Virus record (IMG/VR): IMGVR_UViG_3300009181_000454
Coordinates: 1 to 20,481 of that record
DNA length: 20,481 nucleotides
Strand: one strand, 5' to 3'
Origin: a virus
The position numbers and the translations under genes are program-made. Numbering within the stretch: the first letter of the stretch is position 1; each line of letters opens with the position of its first letter. The notes under the pieces are model-generated. The model was not told where the DNA came from, searched no databases, and saw nothing but the letters and a program-made list of their open reading frames with translations. This document shows positions 1 to 19,703 of the stretch, one piece after another.

Positions 1-494
1 TCCACGGCATAGGCGATCGTATTCGGGCGGAACACGAGACACGATGTTCCGTCAATCACTTCCGTGGGCACGGAGTCAGTATAGAGCAGATCGCCTTGGA
101 GAATCTGCTTCGGCTTCAACTGTGACAATTCCGCGAGACACGCGTGTAATTTATTCGAGACACCGGCATCGCCGTACTGATCCTGAATTTGTTGATGCGT
201 CTTCATGAGCTTTGGCGTTTTACTGAACGCGGCTTTTGTCGCGACGAAGAACACACCATCAGCGGGATCTGATCCAAAGATTACGCTCGGCGCGCCATCC
301 CATTTGGTCGTGATGTTCAGTGACGTGGAGACACCACCGTGCTTGAGCATTCGATGAAACTCACGTAACACATCCTCGACAAAACGCAGACCCGCAATAC
401 CCTCATCGAGAATCATATCTTCAAGATGCTGAAGATGCATCAATTTGCCTGTCTTGTCTTCGTGCAGGTAACTAAGGAATGAGGGGATCGCCAT
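1..494 (-). CDS. KWDG-motif phage protein, nucleotidyltransferase-like (3' part outside window)
   Basis: The frame is open from an ATG at 494 to the window edge, giving 164 visible residues. A GGAG lies about 10 nt upstream of that ATG, and the start overlaps the end of the HExxH gene by 23 nt. Residues 64-67 read KWDG, followed by APSVIFG. Near residue 133 there is QGDLLY, then a CLVFRPNTIAYAV stretch. This pattern matches a conserved protein of T4-like cyanophages that I remember as a family of unknown function (I believe DUF6267). The KxDG plus a later GDLLY-type strand resembles motifs I and III of ATP-dependent ligases and other covalent nucleotidyltransferases, so nucleotidyl transfer is a reasonable but unproven guess. 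An internal ATG at residue 19 is less likely because the conserved N-terminal helix would be lost. Confidence 0.75.
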   Translation of the reverse strand, partial: MAIPSFLSYLHEDKTGKLMHLQHLEDMILDEGIAGLRFVEDVLREFHRMLKHGGVSTSLNITTKWDGAPSVIFGSDPADGVFFVATKAAFSKTPKLMKTHQQIQDQYGDAGVSNKLHACLAELSQLKPKQILQGDLLYTDSVPTEVIDGTSCLVFRPNTIAYAV

Positions 495-1263
495 CTCTGT
501 GTAACTCCAACGTCTGATAAAAGTCAAGATTCGCCCGCATGATTACGTGCCATTGTCGAATCTTCTGATCCAACACACCGATCGCGGGATGTCCGATCGC
601 ATCTGCAAAGCAGCGTTCGTAATACGCGTATGTAGAAATTGCCGGATCGGTATACTGCGTCCGAAGCTCGCGCATGGCATCATCATGGTCTAACGACGGA
701 AACCACGCAATCAATTCTAACGCAATATCGTGTGAATGCGCTTCGATTTCGTCGTAGTCGCCCAAATAGGTCTGCTCCGCGATCGCGACGGCGCCCACAA
801 CACCCGGTCCTCTTGGGCGATAGATGCGCGTCGAAGGTCCGTCTGGCCCGCGCTCAACGTCTTGATGTCGATGCACCATTTCGTGCATCACGAATGTCCA
901 GTAATAAAAATGGATTCGACGCCACTCGATTGCCGTAAATTGCATCATTTTGCCGAGTCGACTCACATGCCACATGATGCGAATATCTGCGGACGAGTCT
1001 CCCCGAGGCAGTTCACATTCGGGCAACCATTCACCGGAGAAGAACATACGCTTATCCGTCTTCGTCACAGGATCAACGTAGACCAAGATATTCTTAATGT
1101 TGAATTGTTGCGTGATCGCGTCGATCCGTTTTACAAAGGCACTTATACTAATCGGTCTCCCTTCGTATTGCTTGAATAGTGTAACAGGAAAAACTTGCGC
1201 AAGTTGATCGTGAAGCACCCGAGCGTCCATAACAATGCGTCGATGAAGCTTGTCGACCTGCAT
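472..1263 (-). CDS. HExxH zincin-like metalloprotein of T4-like phages
   Basis: A 263-residue soluble protein starting at an ATG with GGAG 10 nt upstream. Residues 127-131 are HEMVH, a HExxH zinc-binding and catalytic signature, preceded by an aromatic-rich helix (HFYYWTFV). About 40 residues later the segment YDEIEAHSHDIALEL supplies acidic and histidine side chains (E172, E174, H176) that could provide the third zinc ligand. No signal peptide or membrane segment is visible, so it probably acts in the cytoplasm or on the virion. I recall similar HExxH plus DEIEAxAH proteins of unknown function in T4-like cyanophages. It is the first gene after a strong terminator and has its own promoter-like element, and it overlaps the next gene by 23 nt. 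Peptidase activity is inferred from the motif only. Confidence 0.75.
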   Translation of the reverse strand: MQVDKLHRRIVMDARVLHDQLAQVFPVTLFKQYEGRPISISAFVKRIDAITQQFNIKNILVYVDPVTKTDKRMFFSGEWLPECELPRGDSSADIRIMWHVSRLGKMMQFTAIEWRRIHFYYWTFVMHEMVHRHQDVERGPDGPSTRIYRPRGPGVVGAVAIAEQTYLGDYDEIEAHSHDIALELIAWFPSLDHDDAMRELRTQYTDPAISTYAYYERCFADAIGHPAIGVLDQKIRQWHVIMRANLDFYQTLELHRDGDPLIP

Positions 1264-1356: not shown

Positions 1357-1371
1357 ATATGGGCAGACAAT

Positions 1372-1402
1372 AAAAAAGGGCAGGAGTTCTGAACTCCTGC
1401 CC
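1372..1402 (-). terminator. Rho-independent terminator after the cytochrome/monooxygenase gene
   Basis: Reading the minus strand, GGGCAGGAGTTC pairs with GAACTCCTGCCC (1391-1402 with 1378-1389, one unpaired base between; in practice about 10 bp with a 5-nt loop). Six T residues follow (plus-strand AAAAAA at 1372-1377). It begins about 26 nt after the stop codon at 1428, so it closes the transcript carrying that gene. Confidence 0.9.
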
Positions 1403-1427
1403 CTTTCCGGCTTTTCGATGTGACGTC

Positions 1428-2807
1428 TTACTGCTGTTGCTGCGTGTTGCTGCGCGGCTTGACGCCGTTCGTGACCCCTTCGCCGTACTTCGCGACGCGC
1501 TCGGTATACTCCGCATCGTTGAGATAGACGACGTTCATCCACGCGTGTGCCATCTCGTCAACCGTACGGTCGCCATATCCGACCCATTGTTCGGGATCAG
1601 GATTGTTCTTGTTGGCCGTGGTGTTGTCGTATACCGCCATCACATGGATGATTGTGCCCTTCGGGAACGCCGGTGCTGCGTCATCCTTGTAGATGTAATT
1701 GGTCATCCAGTTGAAGTTGAAGTTCTTCACGTAGCTGACGGTCTGCGTACGACCGTCTGGAAGAATGGCTTCGACCAGCATCGCCTTGCCGCGGAAATGG
1801 AAGTGCGGCTGGAAGTTGGTGATGATCGTGTTCTCACGCAGGACAGTGTAGCCCTCAGTCTGCGCGACCGAATTCGGCGCAATATCCAGTCCAGCGGTGC
1901 CATTCTTCAGTCCAGTGAACGCGACGAGATACGATCGCTTCGTCGGCTCCTGCCCCTTCGGATAGAACCACAGACCGATTTCGGAACCGCCCTTGATTTC
2001 TTCACCAACGGCGTGGATGTGCTGATCCCATGAGATCTTCTCACCCGGCATGACGAGCTTACCCGTACCATCGAGATAGCGATCATAGCCCTTGCCGATG
2101 GCCCATTCCATGAGCTGCGGACGGCGATTGACGAGATCCGCCGCGGACTGCGCGGCTGACACCGGACGACCACCGCCAATTCCCGTGTTGACCGCTGCGG
2201 CATTCTCGGGGCTCAGGATGTGGTACGCGATCGAGTGATGGACGATCTTTCGGGCGGCGACATTGGTCGGTCGAATCTCGACCATCCGCACCCAGCGGGG
2301 CTCAGTGACAGGAATGTCGCTGACCGGACGCCACCATTCATCCTGATGAACAGCAGGCATCGTGTATTCGGGCGACGACACCACGAGATCGGGCGCGCCG
2401 TAGCCGTCACGCTCACCCTGCCAGAACAGCGTTCCAGCAAGCGCCTTTGCCGTGAACTTCGTGGGATCACCCTGTAGCGCCCCACCATCCACCCATCGGA
2501 CAACGAGCGCGATCTGCTCGTCAGTCAGTGACATATCATTCTTGAACTGGACGACGCCGACACTCTTATCAATATGCCACGGCGGCATCTGTCGAGTTTC
2601 GACGCGCTGCTTGATTGAGCGGGCCCAGGGCCGCGCATCCGCGTAGGTGACGAGTGAGAACGGAGCGATACTACCAGGTTCGTGACAGGTCTGACACTTA
2701 GACTGGAAGATCGAGGCAACGTCATTGTACGTCACCTGTTGCCCAGAAACACTGGTCGACAGACCAGCGAGAGCAACGACGAATGCGAGAATGCGCGTGA
2801 ATTTCAT
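1428..2807 (-). CDS. Exported c-type cytochrome fused to PHM-like copper monooxygenase domain
   Basis: The start at 2807 is set by AGGAG 7 nt upstream and by a signal peptide directly after it (KFTR, a hydrophobic core, then SVSGQQ). The upstream extension is not credible. The mature protein of about 435 residues would act outside the cytoplasmic membrane. Residues 38-42 are CQTCH, a heme c attachment site, and M74 in RQMPPWH is a candidate distal ligand. The rest resembles the copper type II ascorbate-dependent monooxygenase (PHM) fold: H190-H191 and H263/H265 could form one copper site, and H335-x-H337 (PHFHFRG) with a later Met such as M424 the other. The NNPDP and YGDRTVDEM stretches match large Acidobacteria-like families I recall. 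The C-terminus is QQQQ. It lies 34 nt downstream of a phage gene on the same strand and ends at a strong terminator, like a cargo gene. Substrate unknown. Confidence 0.85.
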   Translation of the reverse strand: MKFTRILAFVVALAGLSTSVSGQQVTYNDVASIFQSKCQTCHEPGSIAPFSLVTYADARPWARSIKQRVETRQMPPWHIDKSVGVVQFKNDMSLTDEQIALVVRWVDGGALQGDPTKFTAKALAGTLFWQGERDGYGAPDLVVSSPEYTMPAVHQDEWWRPVSDIPVTEPRWVRMVEIRPTNVAARKIVHHSIAYHILSPENAAAVNTGIGGGRPVSAAQSAADLVNRRPQLMEWAIGKGYDRYLDGTGKLVMPGEKISWDQHIHAVGEEIKGGSEIGLWFYPKGQEPTKRSYLVAFTGLKNGTAGLDIAPNSVAQTEGYTVLRENTIITNFQPHFHFRGKAMLVEAILPDGRTQTVSYVKNFNFNWMTNYIYKDDAAPAFPKGTIIHVMAVYDNTTANKNNPDPEQWVGYGDRTVDEMAHAWMNVVYLNDAEYTERVAKYGEGVTNGVKPRSNTQQQQ

Positions 2808-2841
2808 ATCACAACTCCTAAAAGTTACTGCGTTGACAACG

Positions 2842-3165
2842 CTAAAACGAACTTCCACCACCGCCACCACCCGAACGTCCTCCACCCTTACCTGATGATA
2901 CGAGACCTTTAAGGATACCGGTGAGTATACCATAAGCGGCCGCACCGGCAAATTCACCAATGGTTGGAGCCAAGATGTACAACCAGTCAGTGATACTAAA
3001 TGATTTTGCTACCTGCATTTCTTCCTGCGCGGAATTCTTGATGTTATGCGCAGCACGTTTGAACATGTCAGACAGATTACGAGCAGTCTTTTGCTTATCT
3101 TCGGTGAGAAAGCGTTCAGATATGAGTTGATGCTCTTTTGTGATTTTGAAAGATGGAATGGACAT
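2842..3165 (-). CDS. Small membrane protein with Gly-rich tail, unknown function
   Basis: I chose the ATG at 3165 (107 residues). GAGGA lies 13 nt upstream, which is rather far. An ATG at 3186 would add seven residues but overlaps the gp41 end and has no ribosome site. Residues 1-55 are charged and helical (FLTEDKQKTARNLSDMFKRA). A hydrophobic segment follows at roughly 60-87 (WLYILAPTIGEFAGAAAYGI and on). The protein ends in SGKGGGRSGGGGGGSSF. I do not recognise it. It follows gp41 by 4 nt and precedes the cytochrome gene by 34 nt, a gap holding a short inverted repeat (GCGTTGACAACGC, 2830-2842). Membrane location is inferred from hydrophobicity. Confidence 0.7.
   Translation of the reverse strand: MSIPSFKITKEHQLISERFLTEDKQKTARNLSDMFKRAAHNIKNSAQEEMQVAKSFSITDWLYILAPTIGEFAGAAAYGILTGILKGLVSSGKGGGRSGGGGGGSSF
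2924..2932 (-). promoter_or_regulatory. Possible internal extended -10 element TGGTATACT
   Basis: The minus strand reads TGG followed by TATACT inside the Gly-tailed membrane protein gene (codons for AYGILTG). Transcription from about 2917 would give a leader of roughly 110 nt to the cytochrome gene and could express it separately from gp41. No -35 is visible, and the match could come from coding constraint. Confidence 0.3.
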
Positions 3166-3169
3166 ATAA

Positions 3170-4600
3170 TTATTTATAGTCCTCATCGGTTTTCAGAAAA
3201 CCGAGCGGGCGTCGGGCTCGATTACTGAATCCGAATCCTGATTTTTGACTATTCTGAAAGGTGTCGCTCGGCGGCGCAGCGGCATCGGTGAAGTCGACCT
3301 CGTTGCTGCTGGTGTTCCCAGTCTCATAGAGCTTCATACGGGACGTATCGACGCCCAGCAGAAACTTCTGATACGACTGACGTTTGCCATAGCGATTCTT
3401 CAGTGTGTAGATCTGAATCTGATTGTTCTTTTCCAGTTCCTCACTCGTGGTCATCGCGACGATGAAATCTGCCGTCTGCGCAATCGCATACGATTCACTG
3501 ATTTTGTCGAGGCCGGGATCGGACGACGACGCGCCATCACGATTGAACTGCGCCGCAGTGAAGATCGGAATATCAAACTCCACGGCAAGTCCGCGCAACT
3601 CTTCCGCGATCGACTTATTGTAGGTGTAGCTGTTAATCGACGCGCCCATCTTCACGCGAGCAGATGCGCAAATGGATAGATAGTCCACGTAGACGATGTC
3701 TGGCACGAAGTTTTGCTTCGCCCGCAATTCCTGAAACAACGCACGGAAGTGCCCCACGTGTGCCGCAGCAGTGGGATACTCCTTGATGATGACGCGACCC
3801 GTTGACGAGAGACGCAGCGATTCGATCTTCCGCATATACTGTGCGCGAGGCAGCGCCACGACATCATCCATTGGCAGATTCATCGTGTTCGCATCGATAC
3901 GTTCTGCGATACGTTCTTCCGCCATTTCCAGCGTGATGTAGAGGACGTTCTTGCTCATGCGCAAACAGGCTGCGGCCATATGGACAAGGAACAGCGACTT
4001 GCCCACATTCGTGCCGGCAAGGACGACGTTCAGTGTCTTCTTCGGAATGCCACCTTTCGTGATCGTGTTAAAGACATCGATGTCAAATGGAATACGTGAC
4101 TCTGCGCGATGATAGAAGTCATATCGCGCTTCCGCATCGACAAGAAAATCATGGCCGACATGCGTGTCGAATGAGACAGCCAGCGCATCTCGCAGAATAT
4201 CGGGAATCGCGTGAGGCGTGGACTTCTCATCATCGAGCATCGCGACACTCTTACGCAACGCCACATATATCGCGCGGTCCTGACAATACTTCTCAGCTTC
4301 CGCAATCAGAAAATCGTCTTGCGTGGCATCAAGGACCGGTGTCTGCTCAAGTGTCACTACGGCATCGAGTGTCGACTTGGACTCCCGCTCAGACAGATTC
4401 GGCAATTCTTCGATACTCATCCGTAATGCCGCAAATGACGGCAGCGTATGATACTTCTCGTAGAACTCCTGAAACACGGTATAGATCGTCGCACACTCTT
4501 GCGAGGCAAAATACTCTGTCTTCATATACGGAAGTACGCGTTCCGCAATCGTGTTTGACGAGAGCATTTGCCGCAAGAGTGTCTGCTCTTTGAAATCCAT
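3170..4600 (-). CDS. 41: Replicative DNA helicase, T4 gp41 / DnaB-like
   Basis: A 476-residue RecA-fold hexameric helicase that unwinds duplex ahead of the phage polymerase. Residues 1-145 form the N-terminal helical domain typical of gp41/DnaB. GTNVGKS at 196-202 is the Walker A loop, the glutamate of YITLEMAEER (E225) is the likely catalytic base, and IVYVDYLSI has the Walker B aspartate D306. Further on, FTAAQFNRDG and the KISESYAIAQTADFIV stretch match the conserved DnaB H3/H4-type region. Length is close to T4 gp41 (475). The start overlaps the stop of the preceding small gene as TGATG, with GAGG 9 nt upstream. The order uvsX, small gene, gp41 matches the T4 block uvsX-40-41. Confidence 0.95.
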   Translation of the reverse strand: MDFKEQTLLRQMLSSNTIAERVLPYMKTEYFASQECATIYTVFQEFYEKYHTLPSFAALRMSIEELPNLSERESKSTLDAVVTLEQTPVLDATQDDFLIAEAEKYCQDRAIYVALRKSVAMLDDEKSTPHAIPDILRDALAVSFDTHVGHDFLVDAEARYDFYHRAESRIPFDIDVFNTITKGGIPKKTLNVVLAGTNVGKSLFLVHMAAACLRMSKNVLYITLEMAEERIAERIDANTMNLPMDDVVALPRAQYMRKIESLRLSSTGRVIIKEYPTAAAHVGHFRALFQELRAKQNFVPDIVYVDYLSICASARVKMGASINSYTYNKSIAEELRGLAVEFDIPIFTAAQFNRDGASSSDPGLDKISESYAIAQTADFIVAMTTSEELEKNNQIQIYTLKNRYGKRQSYQKFLLGVDTSRMKLYETGNTSSNEVDFTDAAAPPSDTFQNSQKSGFGFSNRARRPLGFLKTDEDYK

Positions 4601-4923
4601 CAGTGTACGCCTCGGGTCTCCGCTTTGATCAAATCACTAAAATTGGCCGTCGAGATGAAACTCAGCCACGCGAGTAGCACCTCTGAACAGTATAGATCAA
4701 AATCCTCATCGGGAACAAAGCCTTCTGGTGCGCTGTGAATTTCGGTCTCGAACTTCGTCGGCACCATCCCGTCTTCCATTCGCTCGCGCATCACAATGAA
4801 CTTCTTAAAGGAGAATGTAATGTGTTGATACGGTCCTTCGAGGATCTCGATGCCGAGAATCGGGTCACCCTTATCCACGGGCACGAGTACAGCATGGACG
4901 CTATTCAGAATATTACTCGACAT
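4600..4923 (-). CDS. 107-residue protein in the T4 gene-40 position, unknown function
   Basis: The start at 4923 is supported by GAGGA 5 nt upstream and overlaps the end of uvsX by 11 nt. The stop shares one base with the gp41 start (TGATG), so it is translationally coupled on both sides. The sequence is acidic and soluble-looking (HAVLVPVDKGDPILGIEILE, then PEGFVPDEDFDLYCSEVLLA), with no membrane segment or known motif. In T4 the gene between uvsX and 41 is gene 40, and cyanophages also have a small gene there. I cannot show sequence homology to gp40, so this is a positional equivalence only. A role as a helicase or recombination partner is conjecture. Confidence 0.8.
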   Translation of the reverse strand: MSSNILNSVHAVLVPVDKGDPILGIEILEGPYQHITFSFKKFIVMRERMEDGMVPTKFETEIHSAPEGFVPDEDFDLYCSEVLLAWLSFISTANFSDLIKAETRGVH

Positions 4924-5977
4924 CGGTATCCTCAAGGACGTCGAGATCACTCGGCATGTTGCCATATTTGAACTGCGTTTGCATATACGTGTCGATCGAC
5001 TTCAGCACATCCTCGGTGAAGTATTTCTCTGGTGTGCGCAGCAAGGCCGACTCAAATACCTTTTCACCAGTCGGGAATTCATATTTGTTGCCAATACGTT
5101 TCACGACAGCAGCTTCCTCTGCGTATTCGAGCAATCCATAGTAACGATCCAATCCACCATCATAGAGGATGCGAGTACCGACCTTGGCGTTTTCCTTCGT
5201 CAGTCGCGACTTGATCATCGTCGCTGTCACAATATTGCCGATGACGTCCTTGTCGCTGTCGCGCTCCTTCTTCTTGGAGAGAAACACGATCGTGTCCGCA
5301 GCGTATTTTGCGCCGGACCCTCCGCTCATTTCTTTGGTGGGAAAATACGCGCCAATAACGGCATACAGATGATTCGTAATGATGAGCGGCACTTTGGCTT
5401 TCGCCATCTTCAGACGCAGCACACGGAACGCGCCCTTGATCAACTGCGCCTTCGTCATATCGCGGACGTCCTTCTCATTCGCGATATCTTCCGTCTCCTT
5501 CTTCGACGGCAGCGCAGACAGTGAGTCGAGTACCATCAACAGCGGGAATCGTTTCTCGATAGGCAATTCCAGATACTTGTCGAGCATCTTCGAGGCCACC
5601 GAACGAAACTTCTCGATGCTATCGGGTTCAGACTTGGCAATACGCGTGAGATCGATCTTTCGATCAGTCAGCATACTGTTCGTGACGGCACTCTCGGTGT
5701 CGAAGTAGATGACTTGCCCATCGGGATACTGCTGCTGATAATTCTTCACCAGCGCCAGTGCGTAGAATGTCTTGCCCGTGGTCGACTCACCCGCGAGAAT
5801 GAGTGCTTTGTTATTCGGCATCCCACCAAAGATGCTCCCCGATAGTGCCGCATTCATGGTGTAGCTGCCCGTATCGATATAGCCAGTGAACTCAGCGGAC
5901 GAGGTGCCTTCACTCGCAACTACAGTATCAACATCACCCAAGTCGGCGATGAATGTCTTGAAAAATGATTTCGACAT
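4913..5977 (-). CDS. uvsX: UvsX, RecA-like recombinase
   Basis: A 354-residue strand-exchange protein for recombination-dependent replication and repair. GESTTGKT at 63-70 is the Walker A loop, YFDTESAV near 91-98 contains the catalytic-glutamate strand, and LLMVLDSLSAL at 146-156 is Walker B. ITNHLYAVIGAYFPTKEMSGG corresponds to the DNA-binding loop 2 region. The C-terminal tail is acidic (DLDVLEDTDVE), as in many RecA/UvsX proteins. AGAGGAGA lies just upstream of the ATG, a near-perfect ribosome site. Length is slightly below T4 UvsX (391). It follows the membrane-protein gene after 27 nt and overlaps the next gene by 11 nt. Confidence 0.95.
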   Translation of the reverse strand: MSKSFFKTFIADLGDVDTVVASEGTSSAEFTGYIDTGSYTMNAALSGSIFGGMPNNKALILAGESTTGKTFYALALVKNYQQQYPDGQVIYFDTESAVTNSMLTDRKIDLTRIAKSEPDSIEKFRSVASKMLDKYLELPIEKRFPLLMVLDSLSALPSKKETEDIANEKDVRDMTKAQLIKGAFRVLRLKMAKAKVPLIITNHLYAVIGAYFPTKEMSGGSGAKYAADTIVFLSKKKERDSDKDVIGNIVTATMIKSRLTKENAKVGTRILYDGGLDRYYGLLEYAEEAAVVKRIGNKYEFPTGEKVFESALLRTPEKYFTEDVLKSIDTYMQTQFKYGNMPSDLDVLEDTDVE

Positions 5978-6004
5978 AGTATCTCCTCTGACTATTGTAT
6001 CACG

Positions 6005-7147
6005 TTATTGTTTTGGCGCAGTCCGCGTTCGTCGTCCACGCGTATTCGGTCGTTCGAGCGGCAATTGTCTTGGCAACTCAGCCGGTGAAATATCTTCGGT
6101 ATCCGTCGATGCATCAATTTCCATCACCGACGTCGGTTCATGAGTTTCATACCCACGCATCGTTTGTTCACTCAAATCACGGAAAACATCGGATGAGTGT
6201 CGAGTGGGCGCATCACTGTCATGATGTGTTGGATGCCCGTTTAACTCGTCTAACTGCTCGCGATCAATCTGATCCGAGACCTTCGTTACGAGGGCATTCC
6301 ACTCAGCATCCTCATGCGGCGTACGCGCCTGCGCCGGCGTATCAGCGATCGGAGTCTGTGTCTCCGAATCCATACTCTGATCGAACATGCGTGACGGAAA
6401 CTCTGACTGTGCGGCAAGCAGCAACGCAATCGCCATCGGATCGAAGATCACCAGAATGATGAGAATGAATACCGTGACGACGCGATCCATCGTGGTAAGA
6501 TCGCTGTTGCCGTAGTAGGCCTTCGCGGCGAACATCAGCGGTCCGACATCAACACTCGCCTCTGCAATATCCGCGTCCAATGCCGCCGCGGTCTTCTCCA
6601 TTGCGCCAAGATTATCCGAAGAATACGCCAGCGTCTCTCGCGCCTGTGATTGGAGTTCCTGTTGCTGTCGCAGGAGCGATAGTGCGCCGTTGCGCCCAGA
6701 GAGACGATTACTCTCCGCGAGTTTGTTGACAAGACTATCCGTCGTCTGCCCTGCACTGAGTTCCTTAAGACGCGCATCGTCTCGCGCATACACCTCACGC
6801 GCAGTGATCACATCACGCTCGATGAGGGCGCGCTCCGCATGAAGACGCGCAATGGGTGCTTGCTGAATCAGATACGCACGTGAGAGATATCCGAAGATGC
6901 CGATGCCGGTGAGGAGCATCGTCAATACAACACCGAGACTCAGATACACGACAAGGGGTTTTGATGCAGTTTTCCAGTATCGAAACACCCATGACGCGGC
7001 GGCGACCTTTGCAGCTTCCAGTGTGGTGCCCATGACGACCACGGGCCAGAATGCGCCGGCGAAGACAAACGCCAGACCCGTGACCGAGTAGAACGCAGCG
7101 ACACAGGAAAGCGTCAGACCAACGACGAACAGAATAGGGCGAAACAT
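6005..7147 (-). CDS. Four-helix membrane protein with central coiled coil
   Basis: A 380-residue protein with GGAG 6 nt before the ATG. Hydrophobic segments lie near residues 4-29, 33-54 and 65-88 and again near 222-247. Between them, residues 95-200 form a charged, heptad-like region (ARLHAERALIERDVITAREV and on, then LRQQQELQSQARETLAY), probably a coiled coil outside the membrane. The last 130 residues are polar, rich in Asp, Thr and Pro, and end in a basic patch (RGRRTRTAPKQ). The segment FAGAFWPVVVMGTTLEAAKV is strongly reminiscent of a conserved membrane protein of T4-like cyanophages, but I know no assigned function. It sits between dam and uvsX with gaps of 9 and 27 nt, which suggests a role in the replication or recombination phase. 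Confidence 0.85.
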   Translation of the reverse strand: MFRPILFVVGLTLSCVAAFYSVTGLAFVFAGAFWPVVVMGTTLEAAKVAAASWVFRYWKTASKPLVVYLSLGVVLTMLLTGIGIFGYLSRAYLIQQAPIARLHAERALIERDVITAREVYARDDARLKELSAGQTTDSLVNKLAESNRLSGRNGALSLLRQQQELQSQARETLAYSSDNLGAMEKTAAALDADIAEASVDVGPLMFAAKAYYGNSDLTTMDRVVTVFILIILVIFDPMAIALLLAAQSEFPSRMFDQSMDSETQTPIADTPAQARTPHEDAEWNALVTKVSDQIDREQLDELNGHPTHHDSDAPTRHSSDVFRDLSEQTMRGYETHEPTSVMEIDASTDTEDISPAELPRQLPLERPNTRGRRTRTAPKQ

Positions 7148-7156
7148 AATAGCTCC

Positions 7157-7972
7157 TTAGCAGAGTGTGGATTGAGACAGAGTCAGATTTCGTGTCGCGA
7201 TGACTTCTCGCGCCGAAGACATATTCGATGACCGCATACGCTCGACGCGATTCGCGAAGCTTAGATCGAATCCGAGATCTTGATAGAGTTGCATGATCCT
7301 CGGTGTGGCTTGATTACAGAGAACGACAGGCCCAGAGTGTGCGGCCGCCCACTCCGCGACAGCCACTTGATCGTTCCATGTGAAACCTCCTGCGAGATAC
7401 TTGGTGAACTCGGTATCATAGGGTGGATCGAGATACAGAAAATCATCAGGACGCAGTTCGATCGACGCGTATGAACCACTCCTGAACACCCATGTCTCCA
7501 TCACATGACGATATGCGGTGTAGTTCGGGGCGCCAATATTATCGAATGCGCTACCTAGACGATGCCCATATGAGGTATTCAGCTTGCCTTGACTGTTGAG
7601 TCTAAACAAGCCCTTATAGCCCAGACGATTCAACGCGTAGAATCGTTTCGCATCGTCGAGTGTCTCGTGTGAGAGCTTCGCGTTAAAGGCATCACGGATC
7701 GTATAGTACATCTCCGGCGTATTGGGCAGACGATCTGACTCGTGATACTCCCAGCCATGCTGTAGCCATCGATAGAAGTTGATCAGATAGGGATTCGCAT
7801 CATTGATCAGCGCCACGTTCGGTTCGAGTCCCAGTGCCATCGAGAGTCCACCGCAGAACGGCTCAACGTAGCGACGCGATTCGTGCCCACGCCACAACGC
7901 ACGAATGTGCGGCACTTGCCATCGTTTTGATCCGACCCAAGATAGCGGCGACGTCAGATTAAAAGAGGACAT
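7157..7972 (-). CDS. dam: D12-class DNA adenine-N6 methyltransferase
   Basis: The start at 7972 has GGAG 7 nt upstream and overlaps the polymerase stop by 14 nt. The longer frame to 8104 lies wholly inside the polymerase gene and is not credible. The 271 residues begin with LTSPLSWVGSKRW, the conserved N-terminal patch of Dam-type enzymes. VEPFCGGLSM (36-45) is the AdoMet-binding motif I, and LDPPYDTEF has the catalytic DPPY at 182-185. The region NRLGYKGLFRLNSQGKLNTS (residues 115-134) matches the LCR(Y/F)N-type target-recognition part of the family. It probably methylates adenine in a short site such as GATC for self-protection or timing, but specificity cannot be read from the sequence. 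T4 also carries dam. Confidence 0.92.
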   Translation of the reverse strand: MSSFNLTSPLSWVGSKRWQVPHIRALWRGHESRRYVEPFCGGLSMALGLEPNVALINDANPYLINFYRWLQHGWEYHESDRLPNTPEMYYTIRDAFNAKLSHETLDDAKRFYALNRLGYKGLFRLNSQGKLNTSYGHRLGSAFDNIGAPNYTAYRHVMETWVFRSGSYASIELRPDDFLYLDPPYDTEFTKYLAGGFTWNDQVAVAEWAAAHSGPVVLCNQATPRIMQLYQDLGFDLSFANRVERMRSSNMSSAREVIATRNLTLSQSTLC

Positions 7973-10499
7973 CTTGTTTCTCCGTGTTCCATCCGATACA
8001 GGACAGAATTGCCTGTAGCGGTTCAATGAATGACTTTTCCCACTGTGTCTGATAGTCGAGAATGGACTCGATCTGCCATTCAGATGGGCAGCCATCGGGC
8101 GCACTGATCACATTCGTATTCAATCGATTGGGCACTTTGAGATACGCGAATTTGATCTTCTGCCCCGGCTTGATGAGTTCATAGTTACCGCCCAGTTGCC
8201 CGACATGTGCGTTGTAGACCATGGCGCCACGCACGGCGATGGGCAAGCTTCTGGAGTCTCCATCATAATTAGCAAGCGTGTTCACGGATCGTGGAAACGC
8301 GATTTGCTCGTATGGCGCTCGACCAAAGACGTCGCGCTGCGCATAGACATAGTCCCAGACATCCTCCTGCGTCTTGCGTAGCATCAGGGTAAGCGCATGG
8401 GTGAGCATCTGGCGACAGATTGCTGGTGTGCTCGACTTCACTGTTTCTATGCCCATCATCTTGAGCTTCGGCGTCGTATGCCGTACACCTTCCGTGTCCG
8501 CAACGTCGAGGATATACCGCTTCTTCGCCGTCCAGACACCACGCGTGGCCACGACCTCACGTGACATCGTCAAGCAGGGCACGGCAACGTTCAGATACGA
8601 GGCAATCTCGTCAAATGCCCGATTGACGACTTTCAACATGGCCTTTTCACAGAACTGATCAAGAAAATCTACCGTCTTGCCCGCATCAGGATTGTTGTAG
8701 CGATGTGCCACACGGTCCAGTCTCACATAAATCGAGTCCGTGTCTGACGCGACCACGTAGTCTTCATCCGTCGAGAACGTCTTGTTGAGAAACGCATTCA
8801 CTCGATTTGCCACGTGACGAATCACATACTGACCCGTGACTGTGATGGCTTCGGCCATATCCGTATCATAGAAGCGGAAGTAGTTGCTGCCGAGACTTCC
8901 GTATGCCGAGTTGAGATTTACCTTACGCACCATCTGCTGATTGTTGTACGCAGCGATCTGCCTGGTCAGCACCGCGTATTGCGGATCAGACTTGTCGAGC
9001 AACTCGCGCCGCTTCTTCGACTCTGTCGCCAGATTCTTGAAACACATACGCTCGTCGTACAAGCTCTTGAGCATGGCGGGCAGAAACCCCTCCACACTCC
9101 GTGATGTCTGAAGACCATTCGCTGCCAGCGCGTTGTCGTTGCCCGCACTCTCGCCGACCAACAGTTGCGTATCGATGTTCCGACTCAGAAGCTGATCGAC
9201 GGTGAACTTGTTGACGGTGCGACGATCCATCAGTGTCTCGGGTGAGAGATTCCACTGACGAATGATGTGTGGATACATGCTGGCGACGTCGAAAGAACAG
9301 ACCCACTCGTGCTGCCCGACTTGGGGATCTTTGACATACGCGCCGGCATACTGCTCGGTCTTCTCGACATTTCTACGCGGCGGAATCTGTTTGCCCTGTG
9401 CGCGAAGATAGTGATAGATCATCACATCCCACAAACGCACTTGCTTAAACGTATCCGTGAAGTTCGCCTTCGCACTGTACGCGAGCGCACACACGAGATC
9501 GATCAACTTCATTTTGTCATCGAGATCCGCGACAAGCTGGACATCTTGAATATTGTAATCAATGAACTTCTGATAGTTCTCCTGATAGAGCCGCGAGAGT
9601 GAATGATACTCCGCATAGGACAGCTTCCGCTTGCCCAGTTCCACGTGCGCGATGTGATCGAGTCGGTAAGACTCCTGCTGCGTGAATGTGAACTTGCGAT
9701 ACAGTTCGTAGTAGTCGAGGATCGTCACGCCACGAATTTCCACGACCATCTGCTCACGTGTATTGATCCACATCTGACGCGTGGTCAATTGACGGAACGG
9801 TGAGAGATCTTGAACATGTTCCACACCGCCCCAGAGTCGTATCATGCGATTCACCAGATAGGGTAGATCGTAGAACTGAATATTCCAGCCGGTCACGATG
9901 TCTGGATAGTCGCCGCCCCCGCGCCAATCTTTCATAAACTTCGAGAGCAGATCATCCTCGTTCGCACACTCGTGATAGGTGATCGTGTCGTCTGCGATGT
10001 AGGGTTTTGTGCCGTAGACAATCGTTCCCGATTCACCGGCGCGCTTCCACATCACGGTAATCGCCGTGACTTCGTTGAATGGATTATCTGGCGGCGCGAA
10101 CGCAGTTTCGGAATCCACTTCGATATCGATGTTCCAGATATGCAGACGTTCCGTATCTGGCTGCATCTCCGTGGCACCGAGCGCGTCCGCAAGAAACATA
10201 TACTCGGGCTGAATCGAGCCGTATGCGTCGGGATGCGTTTCGAGGAACTTTTTGCCATCACGGATGGATGGGCACTGGACAGCTTGTAGTGGGCGCCCGT
10301 CATATGAGGCGTCACCGGTGTAGACGTCTACAGGCAGATAGTAGGTGGGTTTATACTGAGACTCCACAAATACCGCACGACCATCGGCGCTACGTGCCCG
10401 TGCGTAGACACGAGAACCGATGGTCGTGACGTATGTATACTGGAGATCAGGTCTGAGCGTGTCGGTAAACTCGGGCTTCAACAATGATCGTTCGCGCAT
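7959..10499 (-). CDS. 43: Family B DNA polymerase, T4 gp43 type
   Basis: An 846-residue replicative polymerase with proofreading exonuclease. Exo I is NIDIEVDS (D125, E127), Exo II is GWNIQFYDLPY (N206, D211) and Exo III is YNIQD (Y315, D319). Polymerase motif A is DVASMYP (404-410), motif B KVNLNSAYG (526-534) and motif C DTDS (586-589), with KKRY later. The C-terminus QDVLF resembles the clamp-binding tail of gp43. All catalytic residues are present and the length is near T4 gp43 (898). The ATG at 10499 has an in-frame TGA 15 nt upstream, so no longer start exists. It also lacks a good Shine-Dalgarno site: the nearest AAAGGAT ends about 23 nt away, unlike neighbouring genes. Weak initiation could suit RegA-type or self control. 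Confidence 0.97.
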   Translation of the reverse strand: MRERSLLKPEFTDTLRPDLQYTYVTTIGSRVYARARSADGRAVFVESQYKPTYYLPVDVYTGDASYDGRPLQAVQCPSIRDGKKFLETHPDAYGSIQPEYMFLADALGATEMQPDTERLHIWNIDIEVDSETAFAPPDNPFNEVTAITVMWKRAGESGTIVYGTKPYIADDTITYHECANEDDLLSKFMKDWRGGGDYPDIVTGWNIQFYDLPYLVNRMIRLWGGVEHVQDLSPFRQLTTRQMWINTREQMVVEIRGVTILDYYELYRKFTFTQQESYRLDHIAHVELGKRKLSYAEYHSLSRLYQENYQKFIDYNIQDVQLVADLDDKMKLIDLVCALAYSAKANFTDTFKQVRLWDVMIYHYLRAQGKQIPPRRNVEKTEQYAGAYVKDPQVGQHEWVCSFDVASMYPHIIRQWNLSPETLMDRRTVNKFTVDQLLSRNIDTQLLVGESAGNDNALAANGLQTSRSVEGFLPAMLKSLYDERMCFKNLATESKKRRELLDKSDPQYAVLTRQIAAYNNQQMVRKVNLNSAYGSLGSNYFRFYDTDMAEAITVTGQYVIRHVANRVNAFLNKTFSTDEDYVVASDTDSIYVRLDRVAHRYNNPDAGKTVDFLDQFCEKAMLKVVNRAFDEIASYLNVAVPCLTMSREVVATRGVWTAKKRYILDVADTEGVRHTTPKLKMMGIETVKSSTPAICRQMLTHALTLMLRKTQEDVWDYVYAQRDVFGRAPYEQIAFPRSVNTLANYDGDSRSLPIAVRGAMVYNAHVGQLGGNYELIKPGQKIKFAYLKVPNRLNTNVISAPDGCPSEWQIESILDYQTQWEKSFIEPLQAILSCIGWNTEKQDVLF

Positions 10500-10521
10500 A
10501 CATCTATGGTATCACGAAGTC

Positions 10522-10842
10522 TTATCCTTTGAGCAACGAACTGAGCGACGATGATTCCGGCACAACAATACTGCTGTGATACTGACGATAGGCGTTTTGC
10601 ATCTGATCAGAGACCGGCGTGACATAGACCACGTGCAGTGCTGAGATGATGACCTTCGGAGTCTCTTCAGCAAACGGCCGCAGAGGCATCAGACCGACAC
10701 GTACGCCGCTTGTCGCGGGGTCCATTTGCATATGCGGCGACACCGGTTCTTCGATGTGATACGTGCTGTCTTCGGGGCTGAAGGTGACCGCACCGATCAC
10801 ATCTTCTCCCGTTGCGAGATGAACAAGTCGAACGTCTGCCAT
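10522..10842 (-). CDS. Small beta-rich (Sm-like?) conserved phage protein
   Basis: A 106-residue protein with AGGAG 6 nt before its ATG, starting 2 nt after the preceding stop. The N-terminal pattern VRLVHLATGEDVIGAVTF, then YHIEEPVSP, resembles the Sm1-type strand-turn-strand of small Sm-like barrels. The C-terminal half VIISALHVVYVTPVSDQMQN, with a SSIVVPES tail, resembles a family I know from T4-like cyanophages, usually placed next to replication genes. Sm/Hfq-like RNA binding would fit a post-transcriptional regulator beside RegA, but this is inference from pattern only. The gene ends 22 nt before the polymerase start. Confidence 0.75.
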   Translation of the reverse strand: MADVRLVHLATGEDVIGAVTFSPEDSTYHIEEPVSPHMQMDPATSGVRVGLMPLRPFAEETPKVIISALHVVYVTPVSDQMQNAYRQYHSSIVVPESSSLSSLLKG

Positions 10843-12897: not shown

Positions 12898-13309
12898 GGT
12901 CCGACCCCGTCACTGGCGTACATCCACCTTTATAGATGCGTGAACGCAAGTATGAAATTTGGTCTGACGTGTGGAGGTCGGTAAGTGTCTTGGCATGCCG
13001 CAGGCTACATCCATAATACTCAGCAACGACACGAACATCGTCAGAAACCATATGCTTGTGCCACGGACTGTATCGTTTCCGTGATCTGAGTGTATTTAGT
13101 AACAACTGCGCCTGTAATTCAGGCGCAAGCCACGGGCGCTCATTCACCATGTTTGCCGCCATCACAGAATCTGCGTGATACGAGAACGCACGATTCACAA
13201 TGAACGGGATATACTGCTTCGCAAAGTCTACATCATCGAGAAAGGATGCGTCTTTCGTAGACGAGATCGCATTGACGTAGTCGAATAGTCTCGATTGCTT
13301 CTTCGCCAT
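12875..13309 (-). CDS. 62: Clamp loader small subunit, T4 gp62 type
   Basis: A 144-residue protein with GGAGG just upstream of its ATG, which also overlaps the stop of a 31-residue ORF (TGATG). DFAKQYIPFIVNRAFSYHAD, LQAQLLLNTLRSRKRYSPWH and VRVVAEYYGCSLRHAKTLTD match the compact cyanophage type of gp62 rather than the 187-residue T4 form. It joins gp44 in the clamp-loading complex that places gp45 on primer junctions. The C-terminal tail beyond KGGCTP is polar and overlaps regA by 23 nt. Confidence 0.9.
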   Translation of the reverse strand: MAKKQSRLFDYVNAISSTKDASFLDDVDFAKQYIPFIVNRAFSYHADSVMAANMVNERPWLAPELQAQLLLNTLRSRKRYSPWHKHMVSDDVRVVAEYYGCSLRHAKTLTDLHTSDQISYLRSRIYKGGCTPVTGSDHDTRTSP

Positions 13310-13404
13310 CAGTGACCTCCGCCTAGAAGTGCAGCGACGACCGCACCCGCCAAGCCAGCAGCAAGCATAGATACCGCGAGAAGAGCCTTGTCCTGTAGTC
13401 GCAT
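13309..13404 (-). CDS. 31-residue hydrophobic microprotein between gp44 and gp62
   Basis: A short frame starts at an ATG whose first base is the last base of the gp44 stop (TGATG). It ends in a TGA that shares a base with the gp62 ATG (again TGATG). It therefore fills the 94-bp gap exactly and couples the two clamp-loader genes. The peptide begins MRLQDKALLAVSMLAAGLAG and continues as Val/Ala/Leu, ending LLGGGH: a basic N-terminus and one small-residue-rich membrane helix, predicted N-in. No strong ribosome site is seen, so re-initiation from gp44 is likely. No known family is recognised. Confidence 0.6.
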   Translation of the reverse strand: MRLQDKALLAVSMLAAGLAGAVVAALLGGGH

Positions 13405-14363
13405 CACTTTACCGGAAAGCCGCCCATGATCTCAGTCAAGCACGCCAGAAAATTCAGAGATTTGTCTGCGGCAAACGCAACTCGATAGGAGTAGTCCGAG
13501 AGGAGTACGATCGCCTCGGGTAGATGCGCGGGTTCAAGATGCGTCGGCAATGTCTCCGACAGCATACGATAGAACTGCGCCTCGTTCATGTCGTCATGAT
13601 CCGCAATCCATTTGCGGAGATTGTTGAAGTTCTTCGACGCAAGAATGGCGTACAACGTGGCGATGTCCTTGTCGGACATCTGCGAGAGGATCTCTCGCGA
13701 CAGTTCACCGACAACACAGAATCGCTGGAGTTCGTTCAGTGTACGACGGAAGTCGGGAAAATGCAGTTTCACTGCCTCCATCACGAGCGTCTTGTCGTAT
13801 CGAATCGATTCCGCATCAAGAATCTGAAATGCCCGAGTCGCGAAGCGCCCCATCACCGCAGGGCGTTCTGCCTTGGGAATGGTAAAATTGACGATGGAGC
13901 ATCGCGAATGGAGTGGCGCGATGATACGATTACTGTGATTACAGGTGAAAATGAACGACGTCGTCGCCGCGAATTCTTCCATAAAGCCGCGAAGCGCAGG
14001 CTGGACATGGGGCGATAGATAGTCTGCTTCGTCAAGGATCGCGATTTTTCGCTTGCCTTCAAACGACATGCCACTCGCAAAATCTTTGAGCTTCGTGCGC
14101 AGCATCTCAATGCCGTTATCGTCTGACGCATTGATGACAATCGCATCGGCGTTCAACTCAGCGGCAATAGCTTTTGCGACCGTCGTCTTACCGACGCCTG
14201 CGCCGCCCGTGAAGAGTAGATTGGTCAGATCTCCTTGCGCGAGAATACCACGAAGCATATTCTCCACACCGCTAGAGAGAATACATTCATCAAGTGTCTG
14301 CGGGCGATACTTCTCCACAAACACAAAAAATTCACGACGAGCGTTACTGATAGCCGGATTCAT
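13404..14363 (-). CDS. 44: Clamp loader large subunit, T4 gp44 type
   Basis: A 319-residue AAA+ ATPase, the same length as T4 gp44. FVEKYRPQTLDECIL is the usual N-terminal block. GGAGVGKT (53-60) is Walker A, ILDEADYL with DEAD at 111-114 is Walker B, TCNHSNR carries sensor 1, and SRC at 153-155 supplies the arginine finger. It opens gp45 and loads it on DNA with gp62. The ATG at 14363 lies within the end of a 46-residue membrane-peptide frame and has only a weak GAGAAAG about 13 nt upstream. Its stop is fused as TGATG to the 31-residue ORF. Confidence 0.96.
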   Translation of the reverse strand: MNPAISNARREFFVFVEKYRPQTLDECILSSGVENMLRGILAQGDLTNLLFTGGAGVGKTTVAKAIAAELNADAIVINASDDNGIEMLRTKLKDFASGMSFEGKRKIAILDEADYLSPHVQPALRGFMEEFAATTSFIFTCNHSNRIIAPLHSRCSIVNFTIPKAERPAVMGRFATRAFQILDAESIRYDKTLVMEAVKLHFPDFRRTLNELQRFCVVGELSREILSQMSDKDIATLYAILASKNFNNLRKWIADHDDMNEAQFYRMLSETLPTHLEPAHLPEAIVLLSDYSYRVAFAADKSLNFLACLTEIMGGFPVK

Positions 14364-17192: not shown

Positions 17193-17268
17193 TGGTGATC
17201 CGGGTGGGGGTCGAACCCACGCGCCTCTAATTAAAAGTCAGATGCTCTACCAACTGAGCTACCGGATC
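17193..17268 (-). tRNA. tRNA-Lys (anticodon TTT) with encoded CCA
   Basis: Acceptor strands GATCCGG (17262-17268) and CCGGATC (17197-17203) pair perfectly. The D arm is GTAGCTCAGTTGGTAGAGC. The anticodon stem TCTGA/TTAGA (one G-T pair) encloses CTTTTAA, with the anticodon at 17233-17235. The variable loop is five bases, and the T arm is GTGGG-TTCGACC-CCCAC. Discriminator A and CCA (17193-17195) are present in the DNA. The 5' end is only 3 nt after the stop codon of the small membrane protein, so it is likely cut from that mRNA. Confidence 0.97.
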
Positions 17269-18071: not shown

Positions 18072-19655
18072 TTAGAGATAGCGTCCAATGAAAATGGCGG
18101 CCTTCTGCCCATTGGGTGCACCTGTCAGGACATACGATTCACCAGGCTGAAGCTGCGCTTGCCCCAACATCTCGCCCGTGAGCGGGTCATAGTGTGTGAA
18201 CTGCATCGGACGACGCGCAATATACGGCGTATCCTGCGCAACTCGAATGGGCATACACACAAAGTTCGTGCCGTCCGTCGAGAGGAACGATCGCAAGACG
18301 CTGTCCTCCTTCACGAGTGGATCAGTCTGAAACGGATAGTCCGCAAAGTTCGGATTGCCGTTCAACCAGTGCCAGTTCGGAAGATCCGCTGGCAGCAATC
18401 GACGCAGTGACGCAAGGCCATCAAGCGTTGCGGACATTGTCGGCTGTTCCCACAGATTTGCACGACGATACGCAGTCGATGCCTGATACTCGATACCGTA
18501 GATGCCTGCGCCCGTGTGCATGACATACGTCGCACCGGCACACAACCATGTAAGGGCCGCAGACATCGTGAGACGCAGCGGATCGTCATCCTGCGCGACG
18601 GACGAACCGATACCGATTGGCTCGTTGCTGCTCCATGACCATCCCGTTGCTTGACCCTCACGCGGCTGACGCACAGGGCGCCACACTCCACCCGTGCCAT
18701 TCACATCACGTTCGAGATGGAGGGACATCAAGTTCGCACCACTATCCTTGTAGTAGTCCGTAGGGCTCTGAGACACGGGCGCCGTCAGTGCGACCGCTCC
18801 AGTATATACCCGCTTGATACGCGCCACATACTCGATGAGTTTCTCACGCTGGAAGCCGTTGTTATCGCCTTCATTCGCGACTTCAATGTGATGAATCTTC
18901 TCGCCGAGTTCCTGAGACGTCTGTGCCACATAATCAACGAAGGCATCGCGTTCCAGTTGCGTACCCTGCACGGTGCCGAAGATCGTGGGCATCAGACGAA
19001 TGCCGTAGTTGTCGTAGGCATGATTCGCCAGATGCCGCAGCGTATCGTTGGCGATGATGGACTGCATCGTGGACAATCGCTGGTCCCACAGACCACCCGG
19101 TCCCACCGCAAGCAGTACGCGGATGTAGTCTACGCGACCCTTCACATACGCAAGATTCGCATTCAGCTTCTCACGGTCATTGGTCCACGCCCACGGAGCC
19201 CAGAACAGCGACGTTCCGAGAGCGAGATAGGGACCGTCCGCATCGGAGAAGACGCGCCCTGTGAGCTGTGGCACACCCCTGCGTGGATGCACAGCAGGTG
19301 TCGCGGGGATCAACTGTACCGCGTCACACTGGGTGTCCGTCGTAGGAATGCCGCCCAATTCATCGACCGTCTTGCTTTGCACGGACAGACGCGTAATAGA
19401 GTCCACCCAGCCCTCGGCTACGATCTGGATGTTTGCGCCGCCATTCACCGAACCCGGCACGGGAAATGTAATATGCCACGGCGCTTCAGGCACCTGTCGT
19501 TCACCAACAATGGGTGGAAACATATCCGGCACGAGCGTGGCCACAAACTCAGTGGGGCCGCTGACGTCGATGCTAATCAGACGATCGGATGGAGGAGCAG
19601 GGGGATCGGGTGTCTTCGGGCAAAAAATACCAAACCATGTACAGAGAAATGACAT
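18072..19655 (-). CDS. Glycoside-hydrolase-like (clan GH-A TIM-barrel type) protein
   Basis: GAGGTA 4-5 nt upstream selects the ATG at 19655 (527 residues). The N-terminus is odd: SFLCTWFGIFCPKTPDPPAP is short, hydrophobic and Pro-rich without a proper signal or lipobox. Residues about 26-115 look like a beta-sandwich (LISIDVSGPTEFVATLVP, then GGANIQIVAEGW). Residues about 130-400 fit a TIM barrel: GRVFSDADGPYLALGTSLFW, DYIRVLLAVGPGGLWD, RLMPTIFGTVQGT, and HHIEVANEGDNN with N261-E262 like the GH-A acid/base pair. HLERD (E315) and WSSNEPIG (E345) are candidate nucleophiles. The tail TGEMLGQAQLQPGESYVLTG resembles the C-terminal beta domain of such enzymes. A role in degrading host exopolysaccharide, perhaps on the virion, is inferred; substrate unknown. 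Confidence 0.7.
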   Translation of the reverse strand: MSFLCTWFGIFCPKTPDPPAPPSDRLISIDVSGPTEFVATLVPDMFPPIVGERQVPEAPWHITFPVPGSVNGGANIQIVAEGWVDSITRLSVQSKTVDELGGIPTTDTQCDAVQLIPATPAVHPRRGVPQLTGRVFSDADGPYLALGTSLFWAPWAWTNDREKLNANLAYVKGRVDYIRVLLAVGPGGLWDQRLSTMQSIIANDTLRHLANHAYDNYGIRLMPTIFGTVQGTQLERDAFVDYVAQTSQELGEKIHHIEVANEGDNNGFQREKLIEYVARIKRVYTGAVALTAPVSQSPTDYYKDSGANLMSLHLERDVNGTGGVWRPVRQPREGQATGWSWSSNEPIGIGSSVAQDDDPLRLTMSAALTWLCAGATYVMHTGAGIYGIEYQASTAYRRANLWEQPTMSATLDGLASLRRLLPADLPNWHWLNGNPNFADYPFQTDPLVKEDSVLRSFLSTDGTNFVCMPIRVAQDTPYIARRPMQFTHYDPLTGEMLGQAQLQPGESYVLTGAPNGQKAAIFIGRYL

Positions 19656-19670
19656 AGGTACCTCAGTTGG

Positions 19671-19703
19671 TGCGTGAGAGGGACACCGCGCCCCTCTCAC
19701 GCA
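19671..19703 (-). promoter_or_regulatory. 12-bp stem-loop just upstream of the glycoside-hydrolase ribosome site
   Basis: TGCGTGAGAGGG (19671-19682) pairs perfectly with CCCTCTCACGCA (19692-19703) around a 9-nt loop. It starts 19 nt after the stop of the winged-helix gene and ends 15 nt before the next ATG. No U-run follows, so it is probably not a classical terminator. An mRNA-stability, processing or translation-control hairpin fits better. Confidence 0.6.

Follow-up and report, generated by a model that had tools for sequence, protein, structure and literature searches.

The PHM/DBH fold has otherwise been studied in animals, in the enzymes that make hormones and noradrenaline. Two coppers held by a set of histidine and methionine ligands activate O2 and hydroxylate a C-H bond in these enzymes, with one electron per copper. 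The CuH ligands of rat PHM are H107, H108 and H172, and the electron donor of PHM is ascorbate (PMC6123673). Among viruses, the nearest described cases are pmoC of freshwater phages and amoC of thaumarchaeal viruses, the phage pmoC occurring without pmoA and pmoB (PMC7674155). In cyanomyovirus P-SSM7, accessory genes (mazG, purH2) lie just after gp41. To our knowledge, hardly any accessory gene for an exported redox protein with covalent heme is known from phages.

Here we describe the gene cytPHM, carried by a 20,481-base virus record (the window; residue numbers are those of the window protein). Its predicted product resembles PHM and DBH (PF01082/PF03712) in fold and in the ligand order HH...H...HxH...M, but differs from them in its fused N-terminal c-heme domain, its bacterial and phage source and a sequence identity of 12-17%. 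In contrast to the ascorbate-using PHM, the heme is the likely electron donor. Like viral pmoC and amoC, cytPHM is a virus-borne part of a copper oxygenase without its host companion genes; those genes encode an unrelated membrane protein, whereas the cytPHM product is soluble, predicted to be exported, heme-fused and equipped with both putative copper sites in one chain. The position after gp41 recalls P-SSM7, although the gene and the host are different and the product is a predicted exported redox protein. The cytochrome c-PHM-like proteins of Acidobacteriota are the same protein, usually partnered there, whereas the phage copies come without the partner. What is new here is that T4-like phages appear to have taken up such a gene at least three times.

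The gene and its immediate elements are the following.

1428..2807, minus strand: cytPHM, gene for a predicted secreted cytochrome c-PHM/DBH-type protein of 459 amino acids (from ORF, translation, homologues and fold)
2742..2807, minus strand: predicted signal peptide, residues ~1-22 (hydrophobic stretch, maximum 12-mer Kyte-Doolittle value 2.61)
2682..2696, minus strand: CQTCH heme c attachment site, residues 38-42 (Cys38, Cys41 and His42 invariant in 40/40 homologues)
2586..2588, minus strand: Met74 (in QMPPWH), probable axial heme ligand (invariant in 40/40 homologues; analogy with class I cytochromes c)
2235..2240, minus strand: H190-H191, predicted CuH ligands (in line with the HH that is invariant throughout the family matching DBH)
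2019..2021, minus strand: H263, predicted third CuH ligand (invariant in 40/40; aligned to the invariant His256 of L126)
1797..1805, minus strand: H335-F-H337, predicted CuM ligands (via the HMH of L126 aligned to the HTH of DBH)
1551..1553, minus strand: Met419 (DEM motif, 417-419), predicted CuM thioether ligand (via the DEMC of L126 aligned to the EEMC of DBH)
2815..2819, minus strand: ribosome-binding site AGGAG, ~7 nt ahead of the ATG (from sequence)
1371..1408, minus strand: intrinsic terminator, a hairpin plus T-run immediately behind the cytPHM stop (RNA fold z-score -3.3 to -3.6)

Fold, heme domain and copper ligands

The cytPHM reading frame runs on the minus strand from an ATG at 2807 to a stop at 1428. 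An earlier note, made from the letters of this stretch, had pointed to a signal peptide, the CQTCH and HH motifs, a phage-style ribosome site, the strand of gp41, a 34-nt distance to a phage gene and a strong terminator. Each of these was located again in or around the 459-residue frame, with AGGAG as the ribosome site and a hairpin plus T-run as the terminator. The hydrophobic N-terminal stretch of a signal peptide is common to all seven phage copies (7/7).

An AlphaFold2 model of the window protein, computed with 40 homologues as input, reached a pLDDT of 81.4 and a pTM of 0.81. When this model was compared with the PDB by Foldseek, places 1-31 were all PHM or DBH (E 3e-11 to 1.4e-8), with nothing convincing below them, while a structural search with the model among viral proteins returned no match of value. 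Similarity to PHM is moderate by TM-score (0.41 on the query, 0.58 on 1phm), in part because the query has an additional heme domain. The model thus supports the presence of the two-domain PHM fold in the window protein.

The Pfam copper-monooxygenase models (PF03712, PF01082) give no match to the window protein and weak matches in 6 of 40 close homologues, and relatives at ~33% identity, among them L126, pass the cut-off of PF03712 (Cu2_monoox_C). We regard this score as a matter of detection and not as a defining feature. L126 aligns to human DBH (4zel) with E 1.7e-7, its HMH and EMC falling on HTH and EMC, and hhalign of the L126-group profile against the window-group profile gave 100%. The profile alignment puts H190/H191, H263, H335/H337 and M419 onto the copper ligands of PHM/DBH, which indicates a conserved set of six predicted copper ligands (HH, H; HxH, M) in the window protein. 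Every proposed ligand is kept in nearly all of the 40 homologues, and the copper ligands and heme site are intact in all complete phage copies. The fold, the profile alignment and the L126-DBH match together agree with the earlier description of a heme c protein related to copper monooxygenases.

More specifically, the window protein carries HIH at residues 263-265 and HFH at 335-337. H263, and not H265, is most likely the third CuH ligand, since it is invariant (40/40) and falls on the one His that never varies in the wider family; H265, though conserved, probably lies outside the copper ligand set. The ligands named in the earlier note are in this way borne out by alignment for H190, H191, H263, H335, H337 and a Met (M419), with the probable exception of H265.

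The N-terminal domain appears to be monoheme and c-heme-like, judging from its CXXCH and the conserved distal Met. Cys38, Cys41 and His42 are invariant in 40/40 homologues and in every phage copy. The Pfam model Cytochrome_CBB3 is matched by all 40 homologues at E up to 0.1. Because the window protein scores 25.1 bits, below the 27-bit cut-off of this model, we call its domain cytochrome c-like without filing it in Pfam. With regard to a role in anti-phage defence, no PADLOC model matches the window protein.

Phage context, insertion site and further viral copies

The flanks of cytPHM hold four more features.

3170..4600, minus strand: gp41-like replicative helicase, the upstream flank (PHROG phrog_19, DnaB-like helicase, E 8e-109)
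3171..3178, minus strand: TATAAATA, a late-promoter motif of T4 type where orf114-cytPHM begins (sole exact match in 20.5 kb, 0.13 expected)
2842..3186, minus strand: orf114, upstream gene of the inserted segment (ORF; the second ATG, near 3165, may be the real start)
472..1263, minus strand: orf263, the downstream flank, an HExxH protein (follows gp41 in relatives without the insert)

By PHROG, the T4-like neighbours in the window include the gp41 helicase, UvsX, the gp43 polymerase and the gp44 clamp loader; a phage lysozyme and a D12 methyltransferase are also present. Homologues of the window gp41 occur in 2,857 phage records, and since all of these lie below 60% identity, the lineage is distant from cultured phages. 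Two further genes of the window have no family assignment. The 380-residue product of orf380 (6005-7147, minus strand) has a hydrophobic N-terminus, is common to L002, L003 and most relatives and matches no family, and we regard orf380 as an unrecognised gene of this lineage; a 542-residue protein (18072-19700, minus strand) has no match in Pfam, PHROGs, NCBIfam or PADLOC.

The stop of orf114 lies 34 nt from the cytPHM ATG. This small gene is absent from L003, which has cytPHM without it. orf114 resembles the C-terminal portion of a ParB-like 350-residue protein of L002 (L002:51-1103; 34% over 50 residues, E 1.5e-6), and a Gly-rich tail (GGGRSGG...GGGSSF) ends both proteins. On the other side, orf263 carries HEMVH, a zinc-protease-like HExxH motif, stands after gp41 in twelve T4-like contigs and gave nothing in Pfam, PHROG or NCBIfam.

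The junction between gp41 and orf263 exists in several versions. On L003, a separate contig with ~70-77% nucleotide identity to the window, cytPHM lies directly 3' of gp41, and the contig ends within the gene. In L086, L087, L088, L098 and L099, all without cytPHM, the site is empty, with 23-157 nt between gp41 and orf263. A longer gap, likewise without cytPHM, separates the two genes in L090-L095 and L097 (736 and 825 nt, as measured in L090, L091 and L097); the stretch consists of other DNA, as at an accessory site with variable content. As empty, long-gap and cytPHM-bearing versions occur among relatives, the junction evidently accepts accessory DNA. A further contig, L096, is 99.4% identical to window positions 3684-10620 and stops short of the insert.

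Homologues were found on at least six further viral contigs (L002, L003, L082, L129, L130 and L131). The L002 copy is 80% identical to that of the window, on a contig that also encodes gp32-like and late-promoter-regulator-like proteins. The L082 copy (51% identical) has a gp55-like late sigma factor on one side and gp47/gp46-like nucleases on the other; a gp32-like protein, a helicase loader and a helicase are encoded farther along the contig. The copies of L129, L130 and L131 (38% identical) precede the large terminase gene in the gp16-gp17 region; they directly follow the small terminase gene in L129 and L131, and in L130 the tail sheath, tail tube and portal come after. The phage copies thus occupy four different genome positions in T4-like phages. 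Cyanophage S-SM1 has no such gene beside gp17.

cytPHM is a genuine phage gene. It lies between phage genes, is of cellular origin and is selectively maintained, as expected of an auxiliary gene. The syntenic L003, the empty sites and the six further viral contigs support the earlier view of a cargo gene in a T4-like phage. The statement that no described phage carries it also holds within the collections searched: 50,697 phage records contained no cytPHM match, the PHROG families contained none for any phage copy tested, and a literature search that covered few subscription journals found neither a phage with such a protein nor a study of the bacterial family.

Between the window and L003, dN/dS is 0.087 for cytPHM and 0.124 for gp41, and dS is 1.29 and 1.38, values near saturation and thus rough. 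Because the dS of both genes is alike, cytPHM seems to have been in the lineage about as long as gp41 has diverged. The L129-131 copies give dN/dS values of 0.11-0.12 and the phage copies overall 0.05-0.12; the phage copies are under strong purifying selection. The GC content of the gene is 0.58 versus 0.53 for the contig, and both its GC and its GC3 exceed those of neighbouring genes. Three bacterial copies have GC3 values of 0.87-0.93, and the phage values are 0.70 in the window, 0.65 in L003, 0.56 in L002 and 0.34 in L082.

Several motifs bear on expression. In the window, TATAAATA overlaps the end and stop of gp41, and we only tentatively read it as a late promoter. Within 13 kb of L084 (the same contig as L082), the sole TATAAATA lies ~26 nt ahead of the gene, on the right strand and at T4-late-promoter spacing. 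In L129-131, CATAAATA stands ~28 nt ahead of the ATG, where it coincides with the last nucleotides of the small terminase gene. The probability of finding NATAAATA by chance in a given 40-nt stretch is ~0.004 in these contigs. Furthermore, hairpins occur 3' of the window, L002, L082, L130 and L131 copies. From these motifs, the copies may be late, self-terminated units. Elsewhere on L002, TATAAATA also precedes both an Hsp20 gene (13068-13598) and a gene (13664-14122) judged by eye to be Dps-like.

Bacterial family and number of captures

The nearest bacterial homologues of the window protein share 78-82% identity over most of the length, well outside chance similarity, and those of Acidobacteriota reach 82% across almost the entire protein. 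A tree of 78 proteins groups the window, L002 and L003 in a single clade (100/99) beside copies from Acidobacteriota MAGs. The sequences support an Acidobacteriota-type bacterium as donor of the window clade, and both the database search and the tree fit the earlier attribution to a bacterial, Acidobacteria-like family. Bins labelled Reyranella sp. and Bifidobacterium breve (L004, L006, L010, L080), names borne by two of the MAGs next to this clade, carry typical acidobacterial copies; these MAGs are probably mislabelled or contaminated.

L129-131 fall outside the well-supported clade that contains the window. Holding L082 together with the window clade was rejected (p-AU 2.5e-6), as was holding L082 together with L129-131 (p-AU 2.0e-6), and these rejected constraints rule out a single origin for all phage copies. 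Taken together with the placement of L129-131, they support at least three independent captures by T4-like phages; the long branches of L082 and some other rows call for caution here.

Phages mostly take genes from their own hosts, which makes Acidobacteriota the likely hosts here. The window tRNA-Lys(TTT) (17193-17268, minus strand), up to 89% identical to sequences in donor-order genomes, agrees with this without proving it. Across the donor-order genomes, the set searched with the window DNA, matches were mainly to this tRNA-Lys and to the D12 methyltransferase.

Within the bacteria, a close member occurs in 9 of 119 sampled Acidobacteriota genomes (one being the query's own nearest genome), which argues for a lineage-bound family. 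Nine genomes with the family have 7-36 matches each, distant members counted. A secreted partner of ~300 residues (e.g. L005:6541-7434) adjoins 71 of 80 bacterial copies. Its domains are predicted to be beta-sandwiches, and it has a vicinal Cys-Cys pair that is invariant; the partner matches no known sequence family, and Foldseek returned generic Ig-like matches alone. No partner gene was found in the phage contigs, all of which are fragments, nor in a scan of viral contigs, so the lone phage product might be incomplete. In the wider bacterial superfamily, TPR repeats follow the cytochrome c-PHM core (L106, L114, L117), and in L109:43-1842 a long thioredoxin-like stretch, seen by eye, precedes it.

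Proposed function and alternatives

We favour, as the probable reading, that cytPHM is an acidobacterial-derived accessory gene whose exported, host-matured product hydroxylates a substrate in the envelope or outside the cell with electrons from its own heme. The gene would belong to the auxiliary metabolic type, with an Acidobacteriota-type bacterium as its source and a T4-like phage as its recipient, and the promoter motifs suggest that it is expressed late. The signal peptide would direct export, the cytochrome c maturation of the host would furnish the N-terminal domain with c-heme, and the PHM/DBH-type core would take up two coppers from host supply. Electrons of the periplasmic respiratory chain could then enter via the heme, in place of the ascorbate of animal PHM/DBH, and the coppers would activate O2 for C-H hydroxylation. 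The phage would bring the catalytic half alone, with a secreted partner, if needed, coming from the host. In this manner, the protein may change the electron flow or oxidative chemistry of the host envelope, as first put forward from the sequence. Points against this reading are the scores of the window protein below both the cytochrome c and the copper-monooxygenase cut-offs of Pfam, the moderate TM-score, the missing partner and the overlap of the window's late-promoter motif with gp41.

A special case of this hydroxylation has a lower, though appreciable, chance of being correct: the enzyme may act at a late stage on a molecule of the host surface, for example to block superinfection or to keep released virions from rebinding to debris, and not serve metabolism. 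It fits a secreted product, the late-promoter motif just ahead of the gene in L082 and, in L129-131, the motif together with a copy located in the structural gene cluster and flanked by gp16 and gp17, but the promoter assignment comes from an 8-nt motif and the substrate side is inferred.

It is unlikely that the protein keeps a PHM-like core without hydroxylating and serves after export to shuttle electrons or scavenge copper, thereby sustaining envelope electron flow during infection. Such a role would suit a protein whose bacterial partner is missing in phages, as it could still carry electrons or copper on its own. However, three lineages with independent captures, under strong purifying selection, retain all six copper ligands as well as the heme site, and a mere carrier would not need the full ligand set.

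We give very little credence to a recently acquired, unused hitchhiker: the gene is accessory and few relatives have it, but dN/dS values of 0.05-0.12, at least three captures and intact frames speak against neutrality. Even less probable is an assembly chimera or binned host DNA, to which GC and GC3 above those of the neighbours might point and which we reject through synteny (the separate contig L003 has the same gp41-cytPHM junction at 77% nucleotide identity), the empty sites, five other contigs with homologues among T4-like genes, codon amelioration of GC3 from the bacterial value and a dS that matches gp41.

Returning to the hydroxylase reading, at least three captures, four genome positions and strong selection argue that the protein helps the phage. 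As a more specific and tentative proposal, T4-like phages may on several occasions have acquired a self-contained copper C-H hydroxylase, fed by heme, that comes under late control, is exported during virion assembly and alters the envelope or a released host polymer. If this is true, a late-exported, heme-fed copper hydroxylase would represent a previously undescribed functional class among viral genes. The finding also draws attention to a large acidobacterial protein family, so far uncharacterised, of which the phage copy is a natural single-gene version.
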